Positions 6,852-63,310 of a stretch of 64,000 bases of DNA are shown here, piece by piece. The DNA lies in contig OZ038388.1 in the NCBI GenBank assembly GCA_964036045.1, positions 31,021,759-31,085,758 on the forward strand, written 5' to 3'. The notes beneath the pieces were generated by a model, which was given only the letters and a program-made list of their open reading frames with translations, was not told where the DNA came from and made no database searches. Position numbers and translations under genes: made by a program. This DNA comes from Eutreptiella sp. 'Long Island Sound 2002'. Taxonomy: Eukaryota; Euglenozoa; Euglenophyceae; Eutreptiales; Eutreptiaceae. Numbering within the stretch: the stretch's first letter is position 1; each line of letters starts with the position of its first letter.

Positions 6852-27114
<20,263 letters not shown>

Positions 27115-33285: not shown

Positions 33286-33731
33286 GAGCGACCTGTTAAT
33301 TGTTTAAGGTCACATGCTATGTGCTCAGGTGTTTTACTTGATGAGCTTGAGTTGAACCAGATATGAAGTCCACGATTGATTCAGCTGGTGTTAGGCCGAC
33401 ATTCTATTTTTTCATTTGCAAATTCATCCCAAGAACGCATGGACACGTGGACAAATTGGTACAAGCAATCTAACCATCATCCAATCTATGTGCAATTTAA
33501 CAAGCAGATTCCAAATCGATCAGTAATCAGCTTGAATTCGACGATCGTGGCTTTAACTCCATGATGGCGGCTTGAAGCTGAGGAGCTGAGTCTGCTAAAA
33601 ACGTTGAATCTGCTTAACCATCCCGGAGAAGAGGGAAGGAAAGCAAAAGGGAGCTTGAAGCAGTGGGGAAATCTAGCCTAGCGCGCGAGCAGCCGCAGGA
33701 TTCCGGAGCGGTGACGGTATGCAGACTGCGG

Positions 33732-36342: not shown

Positions 36343-36351
36343 CCCTAGCAG
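36343..36351 (+). repeat. Right 9-bp target site duplication CCCTAGCAG
   Basis: Perfect match to 33732-33740, immediately outside the right inverted-repeat terminus. Confidence 0.85.
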
Positions 36352-37150
36352 ACTGCGAAAGACTGCGCACGAACAGGCGACACGCGCATTTACGACAACC
36401 GAAAAAACGACTGCAAGTGATCTACTGCAGCTGATCTTCTGCTAAAAGGCGACAAGGATGTTTTGAACCGTTCTGCAGCCCAAATTTATAAAATAATTGC
36501 ATTATTTTATCGCCAGATAAGGGAACGATACCTTACTGGTAACAAGGCTACTGTGGTCACAAAGTGATTTACAGTATAATAACGACGACGAAAAACGAAA
36601 ATGTAAAATGTAAATGTTAAAAAAGAATAATTTGGCCGAAAAATGGATAATGTAAAATGTTATTTTTTAATGGACGGGTGTCTCGGACAATGTAAGTGGA
36701 TGTTTTTCTCAATTTTTGCTTCGGCGCCTTCGGCGCCCCATGTGGACTCCCTCTCACCGTCCGGAAGCAAAAAATTCCAAAACATGAAATTCGCCAATTG
36801 AAATCTGTTGCTGCGCAGAACTGTGCTCAGCGATCGCTCCGATCCCTGCAGGCCGCTGCGCCGATCGCTGCTGAAAAGGGGCGCCGATCGGCGATCGCTG
36901 CTGAAAATGAAAAAAAAAAGTGCATAACAGCCCTACTTCCCGTGCAAGTACCAGGAATTGAACCAATGTCTGCCAAGCCGTACCCCAGTGCGTTGGCCGC
37001 TGGGGTACTCCCTCTCGGCAGGGCACGCGCACATCATCTGTATAATGTTAATGTAAATGTAAAGTAAATAATAATGCTCAGCAGCGCATACTGTAAATGT
37101 AAATTTAAAAAATAATAATGCAGCCGGAATCGGGCGCTGTTACTGTAAAT
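36352..37150. other. Intergenic, no gene recognised
   Basis: AT-rich, with several TGTAAATGTAAA runs (about 36,600-36,650 and 37,040-37,110). Around 36,946-37,015 the minus strand has a B-box-like GGTTCAATTCC and weakly pairing ends (GGGAGTA with TACTTGC), which may be a tRNA-derived repeat but is too irregular to call. Confidence 0.35.
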
Positions 37151-38339: not shown

Positions 38340-39360
38340 ACAGTACTGCTGCTTATTTTCAAGTTCCTCCAAGTGAAAATCCACTCCCTCCTACTCATTA
38401 TCAACTCCCTCCTACTCATTTTCAACTCTCCCATGCTCATTTTCAACTCCCTCCAAGCTAAAATCCACTCCCTCCTACTCATTTCCAACTCCTGCCTGCT
38501 CATTTTCAACTTCCATCTACTCATTTTCAACTCCCTCGAAGTGAAAATCCAGTCCCTCCTACTCATTTTCAACTCCCCCCTGCTCATTTTCGACTCCCTC
38601 CAAATGAAAATCCACTCCCTCCTACTCATTTTCAACTCCCTCCTACTCATTTTCAACTCCCCGCTGCTCATTTTCAACTCCCTCCAAGTGAAAATCCACT
38701 CCCTCCTACTCAATTTCAACTCCCTCCTACTCATTTTCAACCCCCTGCTGCTCCTTTTCAACTCCCTCCAAGTGAAAATCCAGTCCCTCTTACTCATTTT
38801 CAACTCCCCCGTGCTCATTTTCAACTTCCTCCAAGTGAAAATCCACTCCCTCCTACTCAGTTTCAATTCCTTGCTGCTCATTTTCAACTCCCCCCTGCTC
38901 ATTTTCAACTCCCTCCAAGTGAAAATCCACTCCCTCCTACTCATTTTCAACTCCCCCCTGCTCATTTTCAACTCCCTCCAAGTGAAAATCCACTCCCTCC
39001 TACTCATTTTCAACTCCCCCCTGCTCATTTTCAACTCCCTCCAAGTGAAAATCCACTCCCTCCTACTCGATTTCAACTCCCTCCTACTCATTTTCAACTC
39101 CCCCCTGCTCATTTTCAACTCCCTCCAAGTGAAAATCCACTCCCTCCTACTCAATTTCAACTCCCTCCTACTCATTTTCAACCCCCTGCTGCTCTTTTTC
39201 AACTCCCTCCAAGCAAAAATACACTCCCTCCTACTCAATTTCAACTCCATCCTACTCATTTTCAACTCCTCCCTGCTCATTTTTAACTCCCTCCTACTCA
39301 TTTTCAACTCCCTCCTGCTCATTTTCAACTCCCTCCAAGTGAAAATCCAATTTCAACGGA
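38340..39360 (+). repeat. 1-kb array of a 21-bp unit CTCCCTCCTACTCATTTTCAA
   Basis: About 48 units, arranged in higher-order blocks of several CTCCCTCCTACTCATTTTCAA units followed by a CTCCAAGTGAAAATCCA variant. Related to the array at 35,150-35,830. The period of 21 keeps both strands open (Leu/Phe/Asn/Ser on plus, Lys-Met-Ser-Arg-Arg-Glu-Leu on minus), giving 400- and 345-codon frames that I do not regard as genes. Confidence 0.92.
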
Positions 39361-39450: not shown

Positions 39451-41651
39451 TTAGTTCTTCGGCACTTGAGCCCGCCACTCCAAAAGCTGCTTACACTGAT
39501 GCAACTCAGCTGGCGAAAGTTGTTCCCCACATGCAGTCCGAGCATACAACTGAGCCAAGTGAGTATCAACCTGCTGAATCATCGAAAGCATATCACTTGC
39601 AACTTGTGTGAGAGCTTGTGTGGATGATGGTGGGTCCTCCTCAGCGGAGCCAACCATATTGTGAATGTGTGCATGCAAATGATCATTATACGCGGCCTGC
39701 TGCGCACTCAGACCCCCAGGAGCCTGATTCACGGTGGTTAGCGCATCTGAAAGCTCAAGGGCAGCATTCAGCTCTTCCTTCAGCGGCGGACCGCTACCCC
39801 TACCCTGACCCCTACCTCTTCCCTTTGTAGCACCCTTTGGACCATTGCCTCGCTTAGCGGCCTTCCTGACAGTTGGCTGCACGGTTCGCTTGGCGGCCAC
39901 CGGCGGGGGAACAGGTCGTGGTGCTTGTGCACCTGCCACATGGACCTGTGTGGAGGAGGCTCGCATGTCTACAAATTGGTTCAGTAGCCTCTCCTCTTCT
40001 TCGAGAAAGGCACCTGCATCCTGTCCCTGGTCGGAAAGATGAGTTGCCACTCGATCCACATTAGTTATATATTGACACGTCCGGGATTGCAGGTTCCCAA
40101 GGGAGCGGACAATCTGCTCGCATTTCGTTCTGGCTGGCAAATCAGCCGACAAGGAGATGTCGGTCAATATAATGTCATCGTCTGTAGCATGGATTGCCAC
40201 GGGTACCTGCACTGTGGGTAGGGGGAGGCGTTGGCTGCTGCATTTGGCACTGACAAGGACCTCCGTTGCAGTGTGAAATTGTTTTAGAATAAAAATTGGA
40301 TTGAACAACCCAAGATGGAAGCCGACTGAAGATGACTGATGATGCAAAACAGCAAAATAGTGACGACATGGATGCCCGACTCGGACAGCAAGTCCACAAC
40401 TACACCAAAACTTCGTATAGGCACCATCCTCAGCCAATGGCTCGAACAGACAAACATAATGTGGACAGTTCATGTAACGCGAAGTGCAGCTGGATTCACT
40501 TCGCTTTACCTCATAAACTATATTTTTGCCTTGGATTTGGTGCACACGATTGGAGATCGCACAGAATCTCGGTAGGTCTACCAACTCCGTCTCAAGTGAA
40601 TCGTGACACTGTCGATCATAGTTCCATAAGGGTGCCGCCCTGTGGGCAACTATATATTGGGCCTCCCTGGACACGTCATACTCATACACGAGGTACGCAG
40701 TTGAAGCATTCATCTGCTCGAGCATTCTATCAAACGCCCAGCTTGTCACGTTGCCTGAAACGAACTTGACATAGAATGGGAAGGCTTGGTTAGCTATTTG
40801 GTGATTGGCATGCCGGTGATTCACCATTTCAGTATTTTCAAGTTTATAGCCCTCCTTGGAGAGCAAGTGCAAAACAGATAAAAAAATGTGGTAGTAACCT
40901 TTTCTTGCAGTTAGGTGGCGCTTTATGCAGCAATTCAAAGACTCAGCCCTCTGTGTGGACTTGCAGCCGAAGGTAAAAACTTCTACCTGCCATGCAACAC
41001 ACCAACGGTCAGGACCATGTAGGGGGGATTCTGACTCCAAGGTAGTCCTTGACAGTTTTCCAGCAGGGGTCCTCCAGAATTTTGCGCCAGAGAATATCAG
41101 CAGCATCCTTATCTGGGCACTCCTGAACCTGTCGGATGGCGCTCTCAAGAGCAGTGAAATCGTGTTGCTCGAGGGAGTTTCGGCAGTTTTCCGTAAGATT
41201 TTTGTAAATGTGAAAAAGGCAGAGGAAGTGAGCAGTTCGGTCCGGGGGGAAAACCCTGGGAACGGACCCCAAGAGGGCGTATGCAGCATCACTGAACAAA
41301 ACCCGGGGTGCACAACCGGTTGCCGTTATCCACTCCTGCCAGAGCCACTCATAATCCTCTGCATTTTCACTGCTTGGCATGCAGCCCTGAGCCAGGAGAA
41401 GGGTTTGGCCATGTTCGTTGATACCGCAAAACAGGGCCAATGCCTCGCCGTACCGATTCGATTTCTACGTGTCATCTTCAAAAATGACTTGTGCATATTT
41501 TCTGGGGTTTTTGACTTGCTCTGGCGTCATAAAAAACCATCTTCGTACAACACCAGTGACTGGGTCAGGGGCTTCATGATTGAAATACCAGGCAGGATCT
41601 GCCTGTTTCAGCAGTTTCAAGTGGTTAATCAAACGTGCAAGATCATTTGGG
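39451..41651 (-). pseudogene. MULE transposase, 3' part (catalytic core, SWIM finger, C-terminus)
   Basis: Starts in frame at NDLARLINHLKLL, just after the inserted LTR element. The core motif VIFEDDT is followed by a TAG (41,467-41,465) exactly where MULE transposases normally have a residue before K-T/S-N-R-Y-G. The frame then continues KSNRYGEALALFCGINEHGQ and VLFSDAAYALL. At a C run (about 41,027-41,034) the frame shifts, and the new frame carries the conserved STQRAESLNCC block and a SWIM zinc finger CSCGLAVRVGHPCRH (CxC...CxH) at about 40,430-40,390. A Lys/Arg/Gly-rich region and a helical tail follow, with a stop at 39,451. The enzyme would cut and join transposon ends using a DDE site. 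Two breaks plus the insertion make this copy inactive as read. Confidence 0.85.
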
Positions 41652-42034
41652 TGCAATAGGTTTGGCATAGAGAGGTACACGAAGCCATAGTAATAATAGC
41701 GCAGGCCCCGGACAGAAACGCGATCGCGCACAGCGCAAGCGCAGTGCCAACACAGAAGTGATGAACAGAGTAAAAGGGGACTGTACAATAAATGTCGTAT
41801 GTTGCAATCTGTTTCATTATTCTGAATACAATGCATTACTGTGTTGTTGTTACTTGCAGTAACAACAAGATGTTCAATTGATTCTGACGGACAAGATTAT
41901 CCAAGTGCTCGTGGGAGATTGGGATTGAAGGATTCTAATTTTATTATGAAAAACAAAATGCCGCTGGGAATAAAAAACTCCGTTTGCAGGATTGAGGAGC
42001 AAAAAAGATAGACGCGAGGTCTGTTAGAACTATA
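41652..42034 (+). repeat. 5' LTR (383 bp)
   Basis: Begins TGCAATAGGTTTGGCATAGA and ends CTGTTAGAACTATA. Contains AATAAA (TACAATAAATGTC). Starts with the canonical TG but ends TA instead of CA. Confidence 0.85.
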
Positions 42035-42068
42035 ATCTTGTTGTTACTGGGCTGCCGAGGATTCTGCT

Positions 42069-42929
42069 ATGAGGAGTGACAAAGAGGACAACGCCCAGCA
42101 GAGTACGGTGGACGACCCAACGACCACGAAGAGGTCACCGCTGAAGGAGACACCGTCCAGCCTGCAGCGACTACGGCAAGCAATAGCAGAAGAGGTTGGA
42201 GAACGATGCATAAGCGCGGCTGTCGGACGTTTGCGTAACATGCAGGTATGCGATCACGGCCCAACGCCACATGTTGCCTCAGAGCGCCGCCAGCGACAGG
42301 TGCAGGAGTTTGAAGGGTTTTGCGCTGACAAAGGAGCCCAGGCCCAGTGCTGCCAATATGACACTGCCCGTCATGAAGAGTGCCATGGTGCTTTGGCTAT
42401 GATCCACGGAGGAGTCCTACGTTGTTTGGTCACGAAGAACATACTGGTGCAGCAGACGACAACGCCCAAACAGCCGCCGTTGGAGAGGTCGCTCGAAGAC
42501 TTGATTCACAAGCAAGCACGGCGGCGCTACTGGTATGAGAAGTTAACAGCGATCAACCACGTGGCGGCGAAGGAGATACAACGCCAGATGGAGCAAGCAC
42601 AAGCAGAAGTCACGCTGCAGCAAAGACGGCAATCGAAGAAATCGGAGGGATTCTACGGGTTCGATGAGGAGAAGGAGGAGGAACAAGAAGCGCCGGACGA
42701 GAGTACAGGAGCTCCAGACATACAGCACGAGGGTACACAAGTCCAGGAAGCGCCGGACGAGCGTACGCGAGCTGACGACACGCCGCACAGAAGTACACCA
42801 GTCCAGGGAGCGCCAGGCGAGAGTACTAACACCAAGGACCTGCCACAATTCTACCCGGTCCACACAGTGCGCCGACGCCATCATCACTCCAAGGGACGAG
42901 GACGGGAACGACAGCCTCCACAGGGTTGA
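42069..42929 (+). CDS. Gag-like or unknown protein of the LTR element
   Basis: 286 codons from ATG, 34 bp downstream of the 5' LTR, the only sizeable plus-strand frame in the element. The N-terminal half is mixed charged with a helical region (LEDLIHKQARRRYWYEKLTA, then AAKEIQRQMEQAQAEVTLQQ). The C-terminal part has about three degenerate ~20-residue repeats built on QEAPDEST/QEAPDERT/QGAPGEST, then a basic tail (RRRHHHSKGRGRERQ). No zinc knuckle, protease or polymerase motif is seen. Position argues for a Gag-type structural protein; sequence alone does not prove it. Confidence 0.5.
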   Translation: MRSDKEDNAQQSTVDDPTTTKRSPLKETPSSLQRLRQAIAEEVGERCISAAVGRLRNMQVCDHGPTPHVASERRQRQVQEFEGFCADKGAQAQCCQYDTARHEECHGALAMIHGGVLRCLVTKNILVQQTTTPKQPPLERSLEDLIHKQARRRYWYEKLTAINHVAAKEIQRQMEQAQAEVTLQQRRQSKKSEGFYGFDEEKEEEQEAPDESTGAPDIQHEGTQVQEAPDERTRADDTPHRSTPVQGAPGESTNTKDLPQFYPVHTVRRRHHHSKGRGRERQPPQG

Positions 42930-44365
42930 CGTGATGACCAGTTCATTGTGCAGCATCAGCCACACCGACCTCCACGCGTTACAAAAAAACTTTATTTCGA
43001 CTTGATCATCACACTGCAGAGGTACGACCACCGCCAGACCACGGATTGTGATTGGGGCGTGAACCCCATGTCTGCCGTGGGACGCGGAATGGTCACGTTG
43101 TAAGCGAGAGCCAGGACCAGACTATGGATTGTGATTGGGTGCCGACCAACACGCATACACGCACAGGGAGGCCAGCCCCCCTTTCTTTACGCCAAGGCCC
43201 TCGCCACGTCTGACGACGCCAGATAGCTGGGGCAGAGGAATGCCTAAATGGGTGAGGAGAGGAGACAGCGTCACCCCTGGGGCTGGAGCTAGGTGGCCTG
43301 CAGAGGGCCCTGCTTTTTGAGCCGCGCTGAAGTGTGCCTAAGGTGCGACGACGGCCCATGGATGGCTGCGCACCGAGACAGCTCCCATCAGGGGAGCCGG
43401 GCCATGGCAGGCAACATCGCAAAGCGGCAAGTCGCGGACTGCAGTGGGGATAGAATTTACCCCAGGGATCCACCAGTACCAGTGACCATGGCCATGACCG
43501 CCACGCGTGTGAGACGGACCAGCAAACAAACATCCGGTGAGACTGGATGCCTGGAAATCTTATGACCGACACCTACCTGTATTGTACACACTCCAGCGAG
43601 CAACAAACCTGGGACTACAACGAGAGGACTCTTGGTCTCTGTGGGGGTTCAACTACGCCAATGAATACACTTGACATGGGGTTCGCCTACCTGGGGCTGC
43701 CTACAACAACGCCAGCACACACGCCCATGTCTGCCTGCTTTGGTCCTGGTTAAGCATTAATGACCTAGAGGGTTATAATTTTGAATCTTTGAAGCCACAC
43801 CTTTTTTCTGCAGCCGCGCCACTGAGCACTGCACGCTCTTCCGGCGTTCACATTGTATTATTATTTTTTTTTCAACCTCCACAGGAACCTCCTATATAAT
43901 TTTTGCATTGTTTCAACATCTATCTGTCCGGGTTCGAGGAGAGAGCATGGCATACAGGCATGGCCTGGGTGTATATACCCGGAACCACAAGGCCAGCAAT
44001 CCAAGCCAAGGCTGTACATGGTACAGTGGGCTGTCAGCAGAACTATGAACGGATGTCCAGAAATTGGTGCAGGATATCCTGAGTTTTGTCTGCAGGGTTG
44101 CCGGGTCGGGTGAGTGTTTTTTTTGTGTGATTTTGTTGACACAGCAACAGTGAAATTGCTGCGGGGTAAGTAGTAGGTACCATGTCTTAGAGTAGAAGTA
44201 TAGAGAGGGGTACCCACGCCCACAAGACAAACCGGGTGGTGAACCCCCAGATGGGGAGAATAATCTGAGTGTCTATGTGCAGGCGAGGTCCATGCAAAAC
44301 CTATATATCTTTTTTTTCAGCACACAACAACACCACCCATTTTTCACTGGGTGGTGATAGTTGTG
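42930..44365. other. Non-coding interior of the LTR element
   Basis: No pol-like frame on either strand. It includes a short duplicated phrase, CCAGACCACGGATTGTGATT/CCAGACTATGGATTGTGATT (about 43,035 and 43,119). This gag-only plus filler structure resembles non-autonomous TR-GAG or LARD-type elements. Confidence 0.5.
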
Positions 44366-44379
44366 GCTTGGGAGGGGAG
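44366..44379 (+). promoter_or_regulatory. Polypurine tract before the 3' LTR
   Basis: GGCTTGGGAGGGGAG-type purine run directly abutting the TG of the right LTR. This is the expected plus-strand primer site, and it fixes the element's orientation as plus. Confidence 0.65.
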
Positions 44380-44762
44380 TGCAATAGGTTTGGCATAGAG
44401 AGGTACACGAAGCCATAGTAATAATAGCGCAGGCCCCCGACAGAAGCGCTATCGCGCACAGCGCAAGCGCAGTGCCAGCACAGAAGTGATGAACAGAGTA
44501 AAAGGAGACTGTGCAATAAATGTCGTATGTTGCAATCTGTTTCATTATTCTGAATACAATGCATTACTGTGTTGTAGTTACTTGCAGTAACAACAAGATG
44601 TTCAATTGATTCTGACGGACAAGATTATCCAAGTGCTCGTGGGAGATTGGGATTGAAGGATTCTAATTTTATTATGAAAAACAAAATGCCGCTGGGAATA
44701 AAAAACTCCGTTTGCAGGATTGAGGAGCAAAAAAGATAGACGCGAGGTCTGTTAGAATTATA
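44380..44762 (+). repeat. 3' LTR (383 bp)
   Basis: Same length as the 5' LTR and about 98 percent identical by eye. Ends TTAGAATTATA before TCGGG. Confidence 0.85.
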
Positions 44763-45690
44763 TCGGGCCCATCTTGCGTTCGATGGACTTGAAAAAATTT
44801 CTGATGTGCTGGGTTGAAAACCCTTTGATTGCTGGGTACGCGTCCTCGCTATATTTCTTCCTCAAATTTACAAGAATTTGCTCCGGCATTTCACGGTGCT
44901 CATACGCCCGCTCAAGGTCGTGCCAGAGCTCATCAGGGAGGGCTGATTTGTCCAGTGGGGCGGCCTCCTCCTCGTCAGGCCACCAATGGTCAGAGTGGTC
45001 CCAATTACACTCGGTTAGCTTGCACAGGCCCGTGCAAGGATCATGGGTTAGCGTTGCACCATATGGACACAAATCAGACTTCGTGAGAGGCCGGGGCTGC
45101 TTTTCTGGGCGTGCTCTACTGGTCTCCTTTAGGGGCCCATGTTGTTTTAGGCGTCCCCAAATGCGACAACCAATACGTGCCCGATTACTCCCCCCTGCAG
45201 ACTTGCTGGTAATGCTATTATGTATTGCCAACTCCCGCCGAATCTTATTCAGGTATGCAACAGCTTCGGTGTGGGACCGGAAGGTGCAGCCCACCTCGTC
45301 TCCAGGTCGGGGGGAGTGCTCGGAGGGACAATGGGCTTCGCGTTTCACGCGTTTGCGGGGGGGGATGTCGGGATGAGGTTTAGGATTAGAACGCGGTGAC
45401 TGGGCGGCACTAAACTCATGCTCAATTAAGGGGGCCGGATCCGTAGATTCCGTGGGTCCCGAGTCAGATGCCGGGGTTGGAGATAAGATGGCAGGGGGGT
45501 TTCTTACGGGGGCAGGTCTGGATGATGCACCATTCAAAGGGCTTCTCAGAGCTTCTGGGCCTAGCACATCACTGCTTGAAACTGCCACTTCCGCGGGTTC
45601 CGTTTTGACGTTGTCCAACATTGATGAAGAAACAGATCTCAAGGTCGCACAAAATGGATCGGCATATACACCCTCAAAGAGCAAGGTCAT
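44763..45690 (-). pseudogene. MULE transposase, 5' part (N-terminal region)
   Basis: Start ATG at 45,690 (MTLLFEGVYADPF). The frame is also open upstream to 45,774. A disordered Ser/Pro-rich stretch carries a basic nuclear-localisation-like motif PPRKRVKRE. A FAR1/MULE N-terminal DNA-binding-like region follows (FRSHTEAVAYLNKIRRELAI, then CPYGATLTHD, then CKLTECNWDHSDH, with Cys and His spaced as a zinc-binding module). It is cut at KMGP by the LTR element. With the 3' part the full transposase would be about 1,040 residues. Confidence 0.75.
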
Positions 45691-46220
45691 CTGGGCGGTG
45701 GTAGGGTGGCCCATGGACGTTGGTTGGTTCCAAGGAAGTCTGCGGTTTGATCCTGCAGCGGGATGCAGTTCCATGCAACACCACCGCGGAGATGGAACAG
45801 GACAAGAACTCGTTCGTTACTGACCCAGGTACCGGTTCCCCGTGAAACTCTACAAATTCGCTGATCATGAACGGGCACACCAGTGATGATCCTCACCAGA
45901 TCTGAGATGGCAGCTTCACTGATATCCTTAGGCAGACACAGAACGAGGGTTCTGTCGAGGAGTGACACGAAAATGGGGACCTCTTTCCTAGCACATCGTC
46001 CCTTGTGGAGTAGTCGACACGGTGAGCATCTTCGCCGCCGTTGGTGGTGTCTACGATGCCTCCGATGGAGAAGGGAGAGAACAACAGCGGCCCAAACGAG
46101 ACCACAAAAGACTATGGTCAGCCCCACAAGGCTCCAGCGGACATCGCAGATTGCGCAGAGCAAAAGCATTAAGATGAACATGTCTACAACGAGAGATGAA
46201 CGTGAGAGGCTAACCCCCAT
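45687..46220 (-). CDS. Ubiquitin-like domain ORF ending in LRGG, upstream of the MULE transposase
   Basis: The core spans 45,980-45,780 (67 residues). It reads PIFVSLLDRTLVLCLP at the first hairpin, then a helix-like ISEAAISDLVRIITGVPV, then DQRICR, and ends VLVLFHLRGG. This matches ubiquitin strand by strand (QIFVKTL, TITLEV, the helix before GIPPDQQR, then LHLVLRLRGG), with a ~9-residue deletion between strands 3 and 5. The I44-type patch residue is Cys. The diglycine is not terminal: 30 residues follow before TGA (45,689-45,687), and that TGA overlaps the transposase ATG as ATGA. The N-terminal extension (two hydrophobic stretches, then poly-Arg/His) is doubtful, and the true start or an intron boundary may lie near 45,990. 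A processed ubiquitin-fusion role is inference. Confidence 0.6.
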   Translation of the reverse strand: MGVSLSRSSLVVDMFILMLLLCAICDVRWSLVGLTIVFCGLVWAAVVLSLLHRRHRRHHQRRRRCSPCRLLHKGRCARKEVPIFVSLLDRTLVLCLPKDISEAAISDLVRIITGVPVHDQRICRVSRGTGTWVSNERVLVLFHLRGGVAWNCIPLQDQTADFLGTNQRPWATLPPPR

Positions 46221-46235
46221 TATTGATTCACAACG

Positions 46236-47440
46236 GTCCTCTGATGCACGAACTTGATAGGCTACCCCCTGACTTTTGAATTACCGGGGGGCTCTGATGC
46301 ACGAACTTGATAGGCTACCTCCTGACTATTGGTTTACCAAGGGCCTCTGATGCACGAACTTGATAGGCTACCCCCTGACTGTTCGTTTACTGGGGGCCTC
46401 TGATGCACGAACTTGATAGGCTACCCCCTGACTATTGATTTACCAGGGCCTCTGATGCACGAACTTGATCGGCTACCCTCTGACTATTGATTTACCACGG
46501 GCCTCTGATGCACGAACTTGATAGGCTACCCCCTGATTATTGATTTATTGGGGGCCTCTGATGCACGAACTTGATAGGCTACCCCCTGATTATTGAGTCA
46601 ACAGGTGCCTCTGATGCACGAACTTGATAGGCTACCCCCTGACTATTGATTTGCCAGCGGCCTCTGATGCACGAACTTGATAGGCTATCCCCTGATTATT
46701 GATTTACCGGGGGCCTCTGATGCACGAACTTGATAGGCTACCCCCTGATTATTGATTTACCAGGGGCCTCTGATGCACGAACTTGATAGGCTACCCCCTG
46801 ACTATTGACTTACCAGGGGCCTCTAATGCACGAACTTGATAGGCTACCCCCTGACTGTTCATTTACCGGGGGCCTCTGATGCACGAACTTGATAGGCCAC
46901 CCCCTGACTATTGATTTACCCAGGGCCTCTGATGCACGAACCTGATAGGCTACCCCGTGACTATTGATTTACCAGGGGCCTCTGATGCACGAACTTGATA
47001 GGCTACCCCCTGATTATTGATTTACCCGGGGCCTCTGATGCACGAACTTGATAGGCTACCCCCTGATTATTGGGTCAACAAGGGCCTCTGATGCACGAAC
47101 TTGATAGGCTACCCCCTGACTATTGCTTTGCCAGCAGCCTCTGATGCACGAACTTGATAGGCTATCCCCTGATTATTGATTTACCGGGGGCCTCTGATGC
47201 ACGAACTTGATAGGCTACCCCCTGACTATCAATTTACCAAGGGCCTCTGATGCACGAACTTGATAGGCTACCCCCTGACCATCGATTTATCAGGGGCCTC
47301 TGATGCATGAACTTCATAGGCTACCCCCTGATTATTGATTTACCAGGGCCTCTGATGCACGAACTTGATAGGCTACCCCCTGACTATTGATTTACCCGGG
47401 GCCTCTGATGCACGAACTTGATAGGCTACCGTCTGACTCA
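46236..47440 (+). repeat. 53-bp satellite, about 23 copies
   Basis: The unit begins CCTCTGATGCACGAACTTGA, then TAGGCTACCCCCTGACTATT, then GATTTACCAGGGG. The first 34 bases are nearly invariant and the last ~19 vary (GATTATTGATTTACC, GACTGTTCGTTTACT, GATTATTGAGTCAACA). A partial inverted match, GGGGGCCT with AGGCTACCCCC, lets each unit fold. The array starts in the 5' flank of the ubiquitin-like/transposase locus. Confidence 0.95.
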
Positions 47441-49041: not shown

Positions 49042-50454
49042 CTAGCGCTTCCAATTAGGGTTGCTGGAACCCTCGCGCGAGCCCCCCCACTGATCCTCCA
49101 ACCCAATGGCGGTCTCATCGGGGAGATAGACCACCCATGCAACTTGGGTGGTTCCCCCCTTTTCGGTTTCCCGCTCCACCTGCCGAAAGTTCCTACCCCC
49201 TGCAAGCCGCTTCTGATTGACGTCCGGGACCCAGAAGGCTTCAAAACTGCTGAGTCGGCCCTTGGAGTCGGGCTGACAGAGGTTGAAAGGGGGGGTGCAC
49301 TGGTCGGAATCGACCAGAGCGAGGGGGAGATAGGGGACGGCCTTTTCTGGTGGCAGGAGCCACTGCGTCGGATTGCCCTTGCTGAGCATCTCCTCCACCT
49401 CAGCCTTCGCCTTCTGAACGGGGACAGACCTCTTCATCTGCCATTTCCCCCCCCAAACAACAAACTGGGACAGAGTTGTCCAACAAAAACTTGGATCCCG
49501 AACGTCAAACTGCTGCCTCAAACCTGCTCCCTGCACCGGCAACGACCCCCTACGAATGAACTCTTTAAAAAAATTTGCCGTTGCAAACGTGCAACGGTAC
49601 GGACCTCCATCGACACGAGCCCTCTTTGCCTTGGGCTCGTCAGGCTCAACGCCGCAATGGGGGCTGACGGTCGAGCTCTTTCCCCAATGCACGATCCGCG
49701 ACTGCAGATCAGGCATCTTAGCCAGCGCCCTGTCCACCACCACCTGACAGATCCGCCTGATCCTTGGCGAATCCAAGCCTCCAGCTTCCCAGACCAGCAG
49801 AAACCAGCTAGACTTCTCCCTCAAATCCTTGCTGCACTCGGCAATGACCGAGATGCAGTGGCCCATCCCTCCCCCAGTCCCTCCACCGCCGTCGACGAGC
49901 TTAATGGGATTACCATCAACCCTGCAAATGACATGCCCATACACCCTGTCCTTCACCCTCTCATACACGGACTTGTCCTGGGTCTTGATGGTTTTTTTGC
50001 CAGGCGGAGCTACCAGGTGCTCCGCCCGCCACTCAGCCCACCCCAGCGTCGCCCCCCACCGGCTGTCGACACCCATAGCCCTCTTTGCCCGGACAAAAAA
50101 TGTCTTCTGGCAGATACCACGCGCTGCAGCTTGGTATTCCGCATCATACTCCCTGAGGTCGATTCCGACCTGCAGCCATTGACCCGTCTGGCCGTACACG
50201 TCCTTCCTATTCTGCACCGAAATCACCTCCCACTTACGACCCACAAACACCATTTCTACGACACCCCCAGGAGCAGCCCCCTCGAACTCGTAACAAAACC
50301 AGAGAGGGTAAACGCCTGCAAGTCGCGACCCAGCCGTGATGAAGTCGCCCCCCAAAGAATTCTGGTCACCCGAGACCGTGGTCAATGGCGTGAAGAACCT
50401 CCCCTTCCGCCAGTTCCTCTTGAAACAACAGGTCTTGCTTTCAACCTGTGTCAA
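49042..50454 (-). CDS. Unrecognised protein ORF (470 codons), possibly an exon or element gene
   Basis: A long minus-strand frame with protein-like composition and no repeats. It is rich in Trp, Gly, Val and basic residues (YPLWFCYEFEG, GRKWEVISVQNRKDVYGQTG, HVICRVDGNPIKLVDGGGGT, SSWFLLVWEAGG). There is no ATG near its 5' end (the first bases read TTG), so it may be an internal exon or a decayed mobile-element gene. The plus-strand frame in the same place (527 codons) is Pro/Leu/Arg-rich and looks like a shadow. No known family identified. Confidence 0.5.
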   Translation of the reverse strand: MTQVESKTCCFKRNWRKGRFFTPLTTVSGDQNSLGGDFITAGSRLAGVYPLWFCYEFEGAAPGGVVEMVFVGRKWEVISVQNRKDVYGQTGQWLQVGIDLREYDAEYQAAARGICQKTFFVRAKRAMGVDSRWGATLGWAEWRAEHLVAPPGKKTIKTQDKSVYERVKDRVYGHVICRVDGNPIKLVDGGGGTGGGMGHCISVIAECSKDLREKSSWFLLVWEAGGLDSPRIRRICQVVVDRALAKMPDLQSRIVHWGKSSTVSPHCGVEPDEPKAKRARVDGGPYRCTFATANFFKEFIRRGSLPVQGAGLRQQFDVRDPSFCWTTLSQFVVWGGKWQMKRSVPVQKAKAEVEEMLSKGNPTQWLLPPEKAVPYLPLALVDSDQCTPPFNLCQPDSKGRLSSFEAFWVPDVNQKRLAGGRNFRQVERETEKGGTTQVAWVVYLPDETAIGLEDQWGGSREGSSNPNWKR

Positions 50455-51354
50455 TGAAGCGGTACCCAGAACCTATGGCCCATGGCCCGGAGGCATGTGA
50501 GCCGTCACACCCGTGCGGAAGCCGTTGACACCGGCTGTCAGCGGGATATCCCTGTTCTCTAATCCGCGGGATCTGGAATCCGATCCTTAACCATTAAATC
50601 AATGTAGAATTACCATAACTTTATTGTCTTAGGCGATTTTCGGTCGGAAATCGGTGAAATACCCGATTTCTACCGCGGTTTCTAATTGTCGTGAAATCGC
50701 GCAGTCGCGCCGCCTGTCGTCGCCTGTTCTCCGGACTGCATTAGATAATTCTGTAGAACGATTCTTCTTGAAGTTAAGACTGAAACAGTCTTCGAGTGAT
50801 CCGCAATTTTTTCCTTGATATAACGGATCGCGTCCCAGATTTTTCCCAGAAAATCTGGGCAGCCGAAGGCGCTTTGAACCCCCAAGTGGAATAACAAGGG
50901 CTACGAGCGTTCAAGCGCCCAAGGACGAATTAACGTGCCTCATAGGCACTGTGTATGAGGTTTTGCCCCCCATAGTCATAGGATGAGGCCAAAGGATCCC
51001 AACTCCATAGGCCCAAAGGGTTATTCATTCGGAGTGTTCTCCAAGAAGTGCGCTTTTTCACGTACTTGGCGTCCAAGTACGTGTAGAAGTATGTTGAGTT
51101 GGCGTTTTCTCCCTCTTTGCTTGCCTCTACATCCAGGGCATATCACTTGTCTCCCCCGGATAGTACATATATGATCTCCATATATATATGGGCAACATAT
51201 TTTGCGTGCATGCTAAAATTCGGCTTTCCGAAAGGAGGTCGATTTTCGACCAAAGCACTTGCATGCGTGTTAAGGGACCAAAGTTACATTAGAATATAGG
51301 CATACTTTGATTCTAGGCCACTAGGTTGGGTGTAGAAGGCGTGGGTAGGGTTGT
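50455..51354. other. Intergenic; possible small coding fragment
   Basis: No confident gene. On the minus strand, 50,897-50,682 encodes a plausible 71-residue fragment (SAFGCPDFLGKIWDAIRYIK, then EKIADHSKTVSVL) of no recognised family. It could be an upstream exon for the 49,042-50,454 ORF, but no splice pair was verified. Confidence 0.3.
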
Positions 51355-58346: not shown

Positions 58347-61300
58347 TCAGGCACCTCTGGCTGCAATCGCCCGGGTGAGTGCTGCCAAGTCTGAAACGTG
58401 GATCTTGGTCTTGTGCTTGCGGATGTACTCCATGAAGGGAGTATTGACCCGCGGCACAAATGAGGAGACGGGTTCCCAGGTGTCGTGGGACGGCCCATAG
58501 CCTCGCCAACGAACCTTGAACTCCAGACCTCCGGGTGCCGAGGCTTTCGGACGCTGAGCCAGGATCTTCTCGACAGTATAGTCGTCCTGCTCAGCATAGT
58601 CATCATCCGAGTCAGCCTCATGTGCGGCATAGCTCAGGGACACATCTTGGCCACGGAGGTCGGGTTCCCGCACACGGAGTTGACTCTCGTGGCGCTCCCG
58701 GAACTGTCCGTGACCCACCTTGATGCGGTAGGTGTCCTCACCAATCCTGCGGACCACCTCGCCGGGTGTGAACCAGGTCTTGGTGCGGTGGGTGCCCATG
58801 GGGCGGGGTCTGATCACCCACACCGGGTCTCCCACCCTGAACTTCTGCGCTGTCGAGCTCGGGGCGGACTTCTGACGCTCAGCATGCTCCTTCTCGAGCT
58901 GCTGGCAGATGTCCCGCGCCGTTTGCTCTTGCCGCGCGAAGAACTCCTTGGCATCCATAGCCATGCCATCACCAGACAAGGGAAGTCCCCTACCCAGGGG
59001 GTCCCTGCCAAACAGAATCTGGTGAGGGGACAAACCGCCCGGAGTGGGGGTGTCATGATGGGCCTTCAGAGCAGGCCACATCTCCTCAAACCAGTTCCGA
59101 CGTGGATTGGTGATGTGGATCTTGCGCAGCTTCTCGAACAGCTGCCGTCCAGCCACTTCAGCACGGCCGTTAGACCGGCTGAGATAGGCGACGCTCTTGG
59201 CATGACGTATTCCCATGAGGGAACACATAGCCTTGAACCAGCCACCAGTAAACTGGGGCCCTCGGTCACTGCAAATGGTGCGGGGGATGTCAAAGACGGT
59301 CAGCCAATGACGAATCATCATGACTGCCACTTCCTTGGCAAGCACCCCCTTTTTGCGTGCCGGAACGGCTACAACGTAGCCGCTGTGGCGGTCCACACAG
59401 AGAACCACACAGTCAAAGGTCTCCTTGCCAATGTGCACTTCGGGCATGGAGAAGACGTCCATGGCCACGCTCTCCATGGGCTGGTCAGGAACCGGGGTCC
59501 ATTGGGGTTCCCCCTTGACGTTCCGGTTATCGGGATTGCAGGCCTGGCAGACCGAACAACCTTTCCTGACCTTCTTGATGGCGGTGTGGAGAACGATGTG
59601 GTCGATCTCGAACCGGCGCTGCATGTCAAGGGCTTGCTTCTTGACCCCTGGGTGCAGCATGTGGTGGTGCCAAGCTTCACAAAGCTCGAGCACCCGGGAT
59701 TCTGGTACTAGCAGCTTACCATTCCGGTAGAGCTTGCCATCTTCCTCGGTCAGCCCCTTTGGCCACTTCTGCCCGTCATCAGGGTCGGTCACAGCCCTAT
59801 ACTCGGCCGCAAAGGCCTCAGACTTGGCGTAGTCGTCGGTCCAGTCGTCCTGGAGGCAAGACTCTGGGAAGAGGTGCTTGTCGGACTCAGCTCCATCAGG
59901 GGCGAGTACTCTGACCGCTCTGCTCACCCTCGACGCGAGAGGGGCATCCGCAGCCATGACGACGAAGCATTTGGCACCCTCCTCCTCCATCAGGCGCTCC
60001 ATTTCGATGATCCTCTTGGCTTCAGCGGTCTCAGCCTCATCGCCATGGGCAGAGATATCTGTCATGCCCTTGCTGGCGGGATAGGCCCACCTACTGAGAC
60101 AGTCCGCCACGGTGTTATCCTTTCCAGGAATATACACAACCGTGAGGTCGAACTTGGCCAAGGTCTCATGCCATCTTGCCCGTCGGGAGGCGGGACCTGA
60201 GGGGGTGTGCACGTGCTCCTTGTGCCATGACTGCAGACTCTGATGGTCGGTGCAGACGGTGACGGGATGGAGGGCTATGTACCCAGCCCATTTGCTGAGA
60301 GCCATGACGATGCCATAGGCCTCCTTTTCACGGGGCGTCCACGTCCGTCTCTGGCCTTCCGCCAGGACTCGGCTCCAGAAGGCCACGGGCACGTGCCTCC
60401 CGTCGTCAAGCACTTGCTCCAACACAGCGCCAATGGCGTAGTCGGAAGCGTCGGTGCGCAGGACGAACCCTCGGTCGGGATCCACGAGGTGCAGACCCAC
60501 TGCGGATAGCAGCGCCTGCTTCATCCCCTCAAAGGCACGGTCGGACTCAGCTGTCCAGACCAGAGCCTTCTTGGACCCCTTCTTGGTCTCCTCTCGGTTG
60601 CCCTTGAGCATGGTCGTCATGGGGGCTGCATACTCGGCATACATCTTGATATACCCCGAGTAGTAGTTGCAGAACCCCAGATACGCCCGTAGCTCAGAGA
60701 CCGTCTTGGGCTTTTCCCAGTGCTCAATCGCAGCCACCTTGCCAGGTATGGGCTTTCGCTGCCCGTTCCCGACTACGTGGCCAGCGAAGACCACCTCGCT
60801 TACCGCAATGGTGGCCTTGTCACTGCTGCCCGTGAGTTTGTGCCGAACCAGAAGGTCCAGCACTCGAGTGACGTCCCTCTCATGTGCCTCCAGGAGCTCC
60901 TCGTAGCTCATACTGGGGTCCCCGGACGCGATGATCACGTCGTCCACGAAGGGGTCCGCACAGTCACGCACCGGCTCAAGCAGGTTCTCCAGCATCCGCT
61001 GAAAGGCCGCATTGCCGTTGGTAACGCCCATGGGCATCACCTTCCACTGGAGAGGTCCAAGTGGGGTGCTCATGGCTGTGCAGGCACGGGACTCCTCGGC
61101 GAGAGGCATCTGATGATAACCATGTTTCAGGTCAATCACCGTGAAGATCCTCCGCCGGTGTTGTTTTTGCAGCATGTCCTCAATGAGGGGCAGCGTATAG
61201 CTGTCGTGCTGCGTTTGGGCGTTCAGGCCGCGGTAGTCGACCACGAGCCGCCATTCACCGGCCACCTTCTTGGGGACGACGAAGCACGGAGAGGCCCATT

Positions 61301-61970
61301 CGGAGTGGCACGGCTCGAGCCAGCCTCTCTCCATGAAGTCACGGAGGATCTTCTCCATGGCCTCTTTCCTCTCGCCCCTCAGGGCAAACTCCCGGTGTCG
61401 ATACACACGGGGGTCCTGCTTCAGTCGTATCTTGGCCTCGCCATACGGTCCACGCACCGGTGGGGGAAACACAGGCTTACCGCTGAAGAAGGTATCACCA
61501 TACTTCTGCTTCAGCCTGGCCCTCAATGCCTGAATCTTGGGGCAGTCATCGGACTCCGCCTTGGCTTTTCCGGGCACCTGGACCACGGAGCTTACTTGAG
61601 GGGTAGCGATCCCGCTCGTCTTCGGCTCAGGTGGTCTTCCCAGGTGGCCCAAAGGGCCATCCCTGGTCTTGCCTCGGAATAGATCGCCGTAGGTGGGTGG
61701 GTTCCCGCCAATGGGCTCGTCCTGGCTGGACAAGTGGTCCAGTACCCTCCTTACGAAGGTATCTCCATCATAGGAACCAGAGACGATGGCGTCCACTTCC
61801 CACCAGGCTTTGTCCTGGCCCTTGCCCTCACGCTGGTTTCCCCAGTCGTGAAAGGGCTGATCCATATACCCCTGAACCAGATCCCACTCCTCTTCAGTGA
61901 GGGGCTCTTCCGATTCCGATTCTTCGATGTCAACAGGGGGAACCGCAAAGCATTGCCTCCAAGGCTCCAC
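58347..61970 (-). CDS. pol: Ty3/Gypsy Pol: reverse transcriptase, RNase H, integrase, chromodomain
   Basis: 1,207 codons. Reverse transcriptase about residues 185-395, with catalytic D280 (FTVIDLKHGYHQ) and FVDD at 341-344 in place of YxDD. RNase H about 500-620, with D507 and D575 (CTDHQ). Integrase has an HHCC finger (HHHMLHPG, then CSVCQAC) and a DDE core D838 (SVAMDVF), D902 (SDRGPQF), E938, spaced D-x35-E. The chromodomain is at about 1131-1175 (FKVRWRGYGPSHDTWEP) and would direct integration to marked chromatin. The frame begins without ATG (GTG at 61,970-61,968) and overlaps the protease frame over 61,751-61,970. It is therefore probably reached by a minus-one frameshift. All catalytic residues are intact. 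Confidence 0.92.
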   Translation of the reverse strand: MEPWRQCFAVPPVDIEESESEEPLTEEEWDLVQGYMDQPFHDWGNQREGKGQDKAWWEVDAIVSGSYDGDTFVRRVLDHLSSQDEPIGGNPPTYGDLFRGKTRDGPLGHLGRPPEPKTSGIATPQVSSVVQVPGKAKAESDDCPKIQALRARLKQKYGDTFFSGKPVFPPPVRGPYGEAKIRLKQDPRVYRHREFALRGERKEAMEKILRDFMERGWLEPCHSEWASPCFVVPKKVAGEWRLVVDYRGLNAQTQHDSYTLPLIEDMLQKQHRRRIFTVIDLKHGYHQMPLAEESRACTAMSTPLGPLQWKVMPMGVTNGNAAFQRMLENLLEPVRDCADPFVDDVIIASGDPSMSYEELLEAHERDVTRVLDLLVRHKLTGSSDKATIAVSEVVFAGHVVGNGQRKPIPGKVAAIEHWEKPKTVSELRAYLGFCNYYSGYIKMYAEYAAPMTTMLKGNREETKKGSKKALVWTAESDRAFEGMKQALLSAVGLHLVDPDRGFVLRTDASDYAIGAVLEQVLDDGRHVPVAFWSRVLAEGQRRTWTPREKEAYGIVMALSKWAGYIALHPVTVCTDHQSLQSWHKEHVHTPSGPASRRARWHETLAKFDLTVVYIPGKDNTVADCLSRWAYPASKGMTDISAHGDEAETAEAKRIIEMERLMEEEGAKCFVVMAADAPLASRVSRAVRVLAPDGAESDKHLFPESCLQDDWTDDYAKSEAFAAEYRAVTDPDDGQKWPKGLTEEDGKLYRNGKLLVPESRVLELCEAWHHHMLHPGVKKQALDMQRRFEIDHIVLHTAIKKVRKGCSVCQACNPDNRNVKGEPQWTPVPDQPMESVAMDVFSMPEVHIGKETFDCVVLCVDRHSGYVVAVPARKKGVLAKEVAVMMIRHWLTVFDIPRTICSDRGPQFTGGWFKAMCSLMGIRHAKSVAYLSRSNGRAEVAGRQLFEKLRKIHITNPRRNWFEEMWPALKAHHDTPTPGGLSPHQILFGRDPLGRGLPLSGDGMAMDAKEFFARQEQTARDICQQLEKEHAERQKSAPSSTAQKFRVGDPVWVIRPRPMGTHRTKTWFTPGEVVRRIGEDTYRIKVGHGQFRERHESQLRVREPDLRGQDVSLSYAAHEADSDDDYAEQDDYTVEKILAQRPKASAPGGLEFKVRWRGYGPSHDTWEPVSSFVPRVNTPFMEYIRKHKTKIHVSDLAALTRAIAARGA

Positions 61971-63259
61971 ACGAAGTCTGTGGTGTCGGCCTGATCAAGG
62001 CCCCCATCCACATAGTGGAATTCCGTTGGCCATCTCTGGGGTGGCATGGGCTGTCCCTTAGCGTCCTGAGAGACACTCTCTCCAGCCGGTAGGACGACCT
62101 TGTTTAAGGTCATGTTGGTCAATGAGGCTACCCAATGTCGGGTACTTTCCTCCTCGGTGCATCCCATAGGAACAACCAGCACTGCCTTGGAGCGGTCCTT
62201 GCGAATCTTCGCTATCGCTCTTGGAATGTCCCAACGGGGGCAATGGATCCACATCAATCCCTGATGCGGACCCCAGTGCTTCTTCCACGCGGAGTCCTGT
62301 GCGCTCCAGTACTTCTCACACACCCGAAGATGGGCGGAGGTTCCTGAAGAGAACGCATCCAGGGCCAGATCCGAAGCTCCCAAGTCCGCGACAACTCGGC
62401 TCGCCACTTCCGGCCTTACGCCGTACTCCTGGTTTGCAGGACCAGTTGGCTCAGTGTCCAGCGCGGCCACTTCGAGCTGATTGCGTTCGGGGTGGATCCA
62501 TTGGCATTCCACATGGTGCTCAGGTGACGAAAGCCACGAGAGTTGGTCGTCCTGGTACAGGGTCATGGAGGCCTGGGCCGGGAGGACGCCGGAGTCCGTG
62601 TCCATCATGAAGTCGTACCCGACGATCATGTCCCAGTCCATCTCGGCCTCGTAGAAGCGACCGTGCAGGAGGATTTCCTTGCCGAGGTCTGGGCGGCTCA
62701 GCTCACGATGGTTCACGAACTGCAGCCCAATGGCTGCTTCCTTCGTGCCTCCTACCATGTACTGGCCGTTCGCCACCTTCAGCCTGACAGGTTTCCGACT
62801 GTCGGTCAGACACTCTGGCGGAAGTAGGCCAGCCTTGACCAAGCTGACTTGAGCTTCCGTGTCGACCAACACGTCGAAAACCTTTTCCACTTCCCCGCAT
62901 AAGGCACGGACCTTAAGATGCAACTGCCGCTCGCGACCGACACGGCGCACGGCGTGCAAACTCAGGATCTCCGGCTGTTCCAGAAGCTCAACAAGCGACT
63001 GGTGCAGGTCGTGGACAATGGGCTCAGGCTGCCCATCTGCAGCATCCAGCTGCGGTCCGGGTGATCCTCCGATGCTCTCGGAAAGATCTTGTAGTACATC
63101 AAACACGTTCTCGGTCGCGAAGGATGGACGGGTGCAAGGGTTCGTGCCTTCACTTGCCCTCACCCCGCCTCCGCGACTGGGTGCCGGACCGGGCCTTCCG
63201 CCCGCGGCAGTCCCTTTGTGCTTATCGACTCCCGACTGGGATGGTTCGGCGCTTCCCAC
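61751..63259 (-). CDS. Ty3/Gypsy protease-region ORF
   Basis: 502 codons, no ATG at its open start (GTG). A retropepsin-like segment sits at about 62,915-62,580 (VFDVLVDTEAQVSLV, then DWDMIVGYDFM). The active-site triad reads DTE where the family has D-T/S-G, which would be expected to impair proteolysis. C-terminal to it are a region with ALDAFSSGTSAHLRVCEKYW and a basic tail where the frame gives way to pol. The frame is the same as Gag, separated from it by one TAG and 17 codons, so a Gag-TAG-protease fusion is the natural reading. Confidence 0.7.
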   Translation of the reverse strand: MGSAEPSQSGVDKHKGTAAGGRPGPAPSRGGGVRASEGTNPCTRPSFATENVFDVLQDLSESIGGSPGPQLDAADGQPEPIVHDLHQSLVELLEQPEILSLHAVRRVGRERQLHLKVRALCGEVEKVFDVLVDTEAQVSLVKAGLLPPECLTDSRKPVRLKVANGQYMVGGTKEAAIGLQFVNHRELSRPDLGKEILLHGRFYEAEMDWDMIVGYDFMMDTDSGVLPAQASMTLYQDDQLSWLSSPEHHVECQWIHPERNQLEVAALDTEPTGPANQEYGVRPEVASRVVADLGASDLALDAFSSGTSAHLRVCEKYWSAQDSAWKKHWGPHQGLMWIHCPRWDIPRAIAKIRKDRSKAVLVVPMGCTEEESTRHWVASLTNMTLNKVVLPAGESVSQDAKGQPMPPQRWPTEFHYVDGGLDQADTTDFVWSLGGNALRFPLLTSKNRNRKSPSLKRSGIWFRGIWISPFTTGETSVRARARTKPGGKWTPSSLVPMMEIPS

Positions 63260-63310
63260 GTCACCATCCTGCGACCGCCCTAGCTGGGGCCCTTGGCTGC
63301 AGGGGCTCCG

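Follow-up and report, generated by a model that had tools for sequence, protein, structure and literature searches.

The 64,000-nt stretch of Eutreptiella sp. 'Long Island Sound 2002' DNA analyzed here (contig OZ038388.1; hereafter, the window) carries on its minus strand the broken N-terminal part of the transposase of a Mutator-like element (MULE). Comparison with copies elsewhere in the genome shows this sequence to form the N-terminus of a single uninterrupted transposase frame in a young, high-copy, 17–18-kb MULE that bears terminal inverted repeats (TIRs). The intact transposase is fronted by a small domain (residues ~80–147) that ends in (R)LRGG and is probably a diverged ubiquitin-like (UBL) domain. 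Upstream of the transposase and on the same strand, this element also encodes a cysteine protease resembling ULP1, together with a SET-like protein. Taken together, we judge it an even call that the architecture is what it appears to be, a MULE transposase fronted by a ubiquitin-like domain. An earlier note on this DNA had described a ubiquitin-like protein encoded just ahead of a MULE transposase; what the intact copies reveal, a MULE transposase with a UBL-like front and a ULP1-like partner encoded in the same element, holds more interest than that finding, although it hinges on the identity of the domain. Coordinates refer to the whole window, and transposase residues are numbered from the intact copy L002 where stated.

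The window copy is a damaged transposase gene

The minus-strand open reading frame (ORF) reported in the earlier note (45687–46220, 177 residues) was found as claimed. It encodes the 67-residue stretch VPIFVSLL...VLVLFHLRGG, has LRGG at residues 144–147 with 30 codons remaining after it, and ends in a TGA that shares bases with an ATG (45690–45687). Relative to intact copies, a net 13 nt are missing from the window copy around residues 167–171; the aligner divides this loss as 7 + 4 + 2, and it produced both the ORF stop and the ATGA overlap. The overlapping ATG is an internal methionine (AQM-TLLFEG) in intact copies. An insert of ~3.1 kb also divides the gene (reference position 1475 lies at window 44765 and position 1473 at 41651), and alignment to L002 revealed a downstream in-frame TAG and a 1-nt gain. 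By tblastn, residues 2–186 of the intact transposase frame matched window positions 46277–45723.

A distinct ORF lying just ahead of the transposase is thus an artefact, since relatives such as P0015, P0018, and P0021–P0025 and locus L002 have one frame; a chance ORF was likewise rejected, as the sequence recurs across the genome. The separate protein of the earlier note gives way to one 1,201-codon frame, and its proposals of termination-reinitiation, a -1 frameshift or a special role for ATGA lose their ground because intact copies are continuous and the overlap follows the 13-nt loss.

Intact copies encode one continuous transposase

A search of 5.8 billion proteins retrieved 20 relatives that share 68–92% identity and come, in every case, from one long 'ena' contig. 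In several of them (e.g., P0015 and P0018), the domain continues in frame into the window's 'second ORF.' In P0021 (803 residues; 205 member sequences) and P0022 (676 residues), the MULE transposase domain PF10551 follows the LRGG domain in the same frame (E 1.6e-14, 54.6 bits, and E 2.8e-16, 60.2 bits, respectively; cut-off, 27.6). Two wider protein searches for relatives in other species, which reach only proteins sharing exact words, recovered family members only (at E ≤ 0.01, 5 rows from 5,858 candidates scored in one search and 6 from 8,000 in the other). A search of viral_contigs gave no match and an NCBIfam scan returned weak unrelated rows only.

In the host genome (2.28 Gb, 2,205 contigs), the P0021 query produced 58 match rows, with 56 candidates scored, and the P0018 query 236 rows, often several per copy. 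By hand count among the matches listed, 24 of 54 near-full copies have a clean, stop-free frame of 1,201 codons. For example, L002 encodes 1,181 residues from the first methionine without a stop. The intact layout comprises a hydrophobic and basic leader, the ~67-residue domain ending in LRGG, a linker, a probable zinc region, the DDE core and a SWIM-like region. The zinc region, which had no Pfam match, is putatively FAR1/WRKY-GCM1-like. SWIM (PF04434) scored 9.4 bits on the window's transposase remainder (cut-off, 19.6), and a CxC...CxH pattern is visible there by eye.

The LRGG domain is therefore physically tied to a MULE transposase, as had been suggested, by one frame in the intact copies. 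The earlier note had also held that copies lacking the ORF would speak against it; aligned copies keep the domain (26 DNA rows). LRGG itself is present in 23 of the 26 aligned DNA copies and in 20 of the 23 rows of the protein alignment (both figures include the window), and lies in the interior of the chain rather than at the C-terminus. The protein alignment leaves out P0007, which is frameshifted in the domain, and the fragments P0019 and P0020.

Complete elements carry a ULP1-like protease and a SET-like partner

Copy comparison delimited two complete elements at G000:C10:26562985-26581217 (18,233 bp) and G000:C15:29139112-29156287 (17,176 bp). Both have TIRs identical at 66 of 67 nt and 9-bp target duplications, a combination that we take to be the MULE signature. 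One strand carries, in order, an 819-codon ORF (807 residues from the first methionine), an 862-codon ORF, a 53-bp tandem array and, last, the transposase.

The second half of the 819-codon ORF aligns to yeast ULP1 (1euv), its best match in the PDB (E 0.049 with a 611-residue stretch and 0.012 with the domain). The alignment pairs QSHW with QGHW, VDSL with LDSL and QQPNGYDC with HQPDGWSC, placing all four catalytic residues of ULP1 (His, Asp, Gln and Cys) in order. The same ORF has a weak match to the J-domain (PF00226, E 0.01, below cut-off). The 862-codon ORF matches SET (PF00856) with E 3e-4 and 21.6 bits, just below the 22.4-bit cut-off, and suggests that the element may act on host chromatin. 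It occupies positions 7393–9981 of one complete element (element B).

The protease and transposase genes are also linked across the genome. The protease query gave 73 match rows corresponding to 72 loci (the 73rd row is a second piece of one locus), which we compared with 115 transposase places from the P0021 and P0018 match tables. Duplicate, neighboring and at least one partial P0018 row were left out and the tables hold only the matches listed, so all of these counts are lower bounds. For at least 34 of the 72 loci, a listed transposase lies no more than 50 kb from the protease (chance expectation, ~0.005 per protease), each downstream on the same strand and with no other arrangement at that range. 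At least 21 of the distances are ≤12.5 kb, and at least 13 fall between 10.3 and 11.0 kb.

Resemblance of the front domain to ubiquitin

In sequence comparisons, the resemblance to ubiquitin noted earlier was modest in the window copy and stronger in the intact one. Locally (BLOSUM62), the window core scored 28 against ubiquitin, a value reached by 303 of 5,000 shuffles, and the window ORF fell outside the 15 best of 667 window pieces. Globally, no shuffle in 5,000 reached the score of the core, the ends of this segment being those chosen in the earlier note; end to end, the window ORF ranked first of 500 window pieces of at least 60 residues, by one point (26 vs. 25). The intact copy scored 42. 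End to end, 1 of 2,000 whole-ORF shuffles reached this value; locally, it was reached by 10 of 10,000 shuffles of the domain and by 31 of 2,000 of the whole ORF.

Blind searches of PDB sequences point in the same direction. A Ubl-eS31 fusion ranked first for the window core (phmmer, non-significant E 0.27) and for the profile (E 1.6). The matches of the intact copy were led by the sacsin constructs 5vsx and 5vsz (E 0.31 for both), which we take to be UBL domains, followed by the Ubl-eS31 fusion (E 0.38), in ubiquitin's register. Furthermore, hhalign placed the domain in register with ubiquitin (residues 2–45 vs. 2–46; 0 of 60 shuffles), with a score of 17.2 and a probability of only 4%, and the RLRGG equals the ubiquitin tail. 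The Ubl-eS31 and sacsin fragments gave hhalign probabilities of 91 and 88%, values biased upwards by their choice after they had been seen as matches.

Several results weigh against a ubiquitin-like domain. The hidden Markov model search proposed earlier, against Pfam ubiquitin (PF00240), gave no match even at E 10; membership in that family was rejected, and we call the domain ubiquitin-like for this reason. Nor is it among the 150 scored rows of a PF00240 scan of the genome. The P0018 domain found nothing in the PDB. A ubiquitin/NEDD8/Rub1 profile aligned over 21 columns only and was bettered by 2 of 300 decoys, and NEDD8 alone in hhalign by 3 of 60. Pfam PB1 (PF00564) did not match the domain; ubiquitin was likewise without a match. 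The structure prediction suggested in the earlier note yielded a strand-strand-helix...strand order at low confidence: the two AlphaFold models were poor (mean predicted local distance difference test scores of 64.7 and 47.8), their best PDB structure matches were ribosomal proteins (mostly uL23, also S24e), and ubiquitin was absent from the best 50 of each listing. E. coli L23 scored 29.9 in hhalign (probability 73%; 0 of 150 shuffles), above ubiquitin, a value biased upwards because the sequence was chosen after the structure matches had been seen. With BLOSUM62, E. coli L23 was about equal to ubiquitin (41 vs. 42; 14 vs. 10 of 10,000 shuffles).

As a side observation, most of the scored PF00240 rows lie in enormous polyubiquitin arrays (G000:C15:29319398-29378821), ~163 kb from complete element C.

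These results leave a substantial, if minority, likelihood that residues 80–147 are not ubiquitin-like, being instead either a small alpha/beta domain of another kind, which the models make uL23-like, or an accidentally open leader, with LRGG a coincidence. T. thermophilus L23, however, showed nothing in hhalign (33 of 60), and the blind matches of the intact copy were led by UBL domains of two families. The register with ubiquitin also runs end to end, tail included. An accidental frame is itself unlikely: frame 0 has no stop in the 173 codons of leader and domain that precede Met174, which 46 of 20,000 shuffles achieved, whereas each of the five remaining frames in the reference copy contains 4–8 stops.

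Leader, linker and selection

The leader of the intact copy is strongly hydrophobic, with a Kyte-Doolittle value of 2.5 over 19 residues, and then becomes very basic. The leader's ATG falls within the last, degenerate unit of the 53-bp array, at the array's edge. In L034, a P0018-type copy, this ATG is gone and MPIFV stands at the start of the domain. The linker is marked by motifs resembling the SUMO consensus (psi-K-x-E). Two such motifs in residues 148–280 were reached by 12 of 20,000 shuffles, and four in the whole transposase ORF by 100 of 20,000. The L002 motifs listed for residues 148–280 are VKTE, IKHE and VKRE, one of which overlaps the sequence RKRVKRE, similar to a nuclear localization signal (NLS); the P0015/P0017/P0018 subfamily has a fourth motif, VKKE or VKME.

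Selection was assessed from changes common to at least 4 of 26 copies. Purifying selection was detected on the MULE core (5 nonsynonymous to 8 synonymous changes, P 0.008) and on the linker (6:8, P 0.02), with substitution counts that are tiny because the copies are young. By itself, the ratio of nonsynonymous to synonymous rates among close copies was without power. Shared changes in the DNA-binding region (L009–L038) were 11 nonsynonymous to 1 synonymous, a non-significant excess (P 0.13) possibly reflecting fast-evolving DNA recognition.

A possible proteolytic maturation of the transposase

The presence in one transposon of an enzyme resembling UBL proteases and a ubiquitin-resembling front domain ending in GG suggests self-processing. 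In the mechanism that we favor, the transposase would be made as a leader-UBL-GG-transposase precursor and kept inactive by the UBL domain, or outside the nucleus if the hydrophobic leader is translated. A UBL protease would then recognize the domain and cut after GG; most economically, this would be the ULP1-like enzyme that the element itself encodes, or else a deubiquitinase or ULP of the host. The freed transposase would begin at VAWN and bear the NLS-like RKRVKRE of the linker. The earlier idea of release by UBL-type proteolysis gains weight from the ULP1-like protease that intact elements also encode. Even so, we regard the cleavage step alone as unlikely, and the full scheme, in which a precursor, possibly membrane-anchored, waits behind its own UBL domain until the protease encoded ~10 kb upstream cuts after GG and frees an active nuclear transposase, as more doubtful again.

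Other findings count against the scheme. Pfam Peptidase_C48 (PF02902) did not match the protease (611-residue stretch at E ≤ 1; domain at E ≤ 10), which we therefore name ULP1-like only, and no clear selective constraint was seen on it. In the selection test, neither the domain (7:3, P 0.60) nor the leader (8:4, P 0.48) showed purifying selection. Among the matches listed, 38 of the 72 proteases have no transposase within 50 kb (six of these have one within 110 kb), and one pair 80 kb apart has a different arrangement. Of the 56 transposases in the P0021 table, a listed protease lies upstream at no more than 50 kb for at least 23. When the element's ORFs were matched to the window, no protease remnant was found there.

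About as likely as precursor cleavage, and so also on the improbable side, is a ubiquitin-like or beta-grasp interaction module that is never cut, like the PB1 of MUGB, with the ULP1-like enzyme acting on host SUMO or ubiquitin conjugates. A PB1 exon precedes the MuDR, MULE and SWIM domains in the MUGB genes described (PMC3435246). Moreover, the passages on ULP1-bearing MULEs of Arabidopsis, melon, rice and grapevine name no UBL domain (PMC13317346, PMC2836005, PMC2528002), and the protease may therefore have another use. The psi-K-x-E cluster of the linker fits here as well and could tie the protease to SUMO instead. By contrast, an (R)LRGG exactly at the end of the domain would be superfluous in a pure interaction module, a point that weighs little because the copies are too young for its retention to be telling. 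Finally, reinitiation or a -1 shift at ATGA, with a distinct ubiquitin-like protein made before the transposase, is extremely improbable: the overlap in this one copy speaks for it, but the window copy is disrupted at several places and intact copies have one continuous frame.

Relation to known systems

MULEs that combine a transposase with a ULP-type cysteine protease have been described as KAONASHI/VANDAL in Arabidopsis and in melon, rice and grapevine; ULP1 domains are also published in CACTA and Ginger elements, and the cited passages describe what exactly these domains do in MULEs as unknown (PMC13317346, PMC2836005, PMC2528002). The present element shares this pairing. The KI-MULEs described are non-TIR elements with ULP in reverse orientation to mudrA, whereas the element reported here has TIRs and both genes on one strand; in melon, ULP also occurs in TIR-MULEs, and either orientation is reported in melon and rice (PMC2528002). 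Judged by these passages, two features are new: the SET-like protein, and a transposase that itself bears a ubiquitin-like domain ending in GG.

The domesticated MUGB (MUSTANG) genes of angiosperms likewise have an extra N-terminal domain, PB1, before the DNA-binding, MULE and SWIM domains (PMC3435246). In that source, however, they are host genes with PB1 on its own short exon and no LRGG or protease partner is named, whereas the Eutreptiella family is a young repeat family with a single frame. Ginger1 resembles it in carrying a ubiquitin-pathway protease (OTU or ULP1), which is fused to a different, Gypsy-integrase-like transposase; the passage describes no UBL domain (PMC2836005).

The layout also recalls Ubl-eS31, a top sequence match, and other ubiquitin or UBL fusion precursors, in which an N-terminal UBL is joined in frame to another protein. 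Such precursors are processed at GG, and the PB1 domain also has a beta-grasp fold. Unlike these fusions, the cargo here is a transposase, and the domain is about nine residues shorter, too diverged for Pfam and possibly preceded by a hydrophobic leader. In the open-access literature, judged mostly by titles, we found no publication describing a ubiquitin-like domain in a transposase.

If true, maturation of the transposase by proteolysis at a ubiquitin-like tag would be a new means of controlling its activity. It would also assign a concrete function, in this lineage at least, to the ULP1 proteases of MULEs, which have long been puzzling. Alongside the ULP1-like protease, the element's DNA encodes a candidate for a natural substrate, which makes the question testable with two proteins.

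Other features of the window

Table 1. Features of the MULE copy and adjoining sequence in the window.
Feature	Position	Strand	Basis
Broken N-terminal transposase part: leader, ubiquitin-like domain, start of linker	45687..46220	-	ORF list; tblastn with intact frame
Leader, ~79 codons: hydrophobic stretch, then RRHRRHHQRRRR; translation putative	45984..46220	-	Sequence comparison
Putative ubiquitin-like domain VPIFV...LRGG, 67 residues	45780..45980	-	Sequence comparison
LRGG	45780..45791	-	Aligned DNA and protein copies
Second ORF: linker (psi-K-x-E motifs, NLS-like RKRVKRE), then putative zinc region	44758..45774	-	In frame with UBL domain in intact copies
Insert dividing the transposase gene, ~3.1 kb	41652..44764	.	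Alignment to reference; repeat arms
MULE DDE core remnant, in-frame TAG at 41467-41465	41024..41716	-	Alignment; PF10551 in intact relatives
Remaining transposase: catalytic-E region (STQRAESLN, by eye), SWIM-like CxCx..CxH, basic C-terminus	39451..41217	-	Alignment; SWIM below cut-off
53-bp tandem array; precedes transposase gene in intact elements too	46198..47438	.	Repeat scan, copy comparison
SET-like ORF, C-terminal half (residues 388-862 of 862), without the SET stretch	49042..50472 (tblastn 49045-50469)	-	tblastn
21-bp-based tandem array; follows transposase in intact elements	38349..39349	.	Repeat scan, copy comparison
Exact match to 21 terminal TIR bases	33709..33729	+	This element's end or another copy's

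The insert in the transposase gene has a plus-strand ORF of its own (42069–42929) and repeated sequence on both sides. Beyond the array that follows the window element, TIR-like ends in the same orientation (36343–36386 and 33709–33729) hint at nested or partial copies.

The window also contains a Gypsy-type retrotransposon (58347–63310, minus strand) with a long open frame that matches reverse transcriptase, RNase H and chromodomain families (PF00078, PF17917, PF00385), its integrase falling just below cut-off. On the same strand, a very long gene (6852–27132) encodes, judged by eye, a fibronectin-III-like repeat protein with WGLWS-type repeats and a PDZ-like and an EF-hand-like end. Within it lies a 5.4-kb GCACAG hexanucleotide array (8000–13392) in an open frame coding for VPVPVT repeats.
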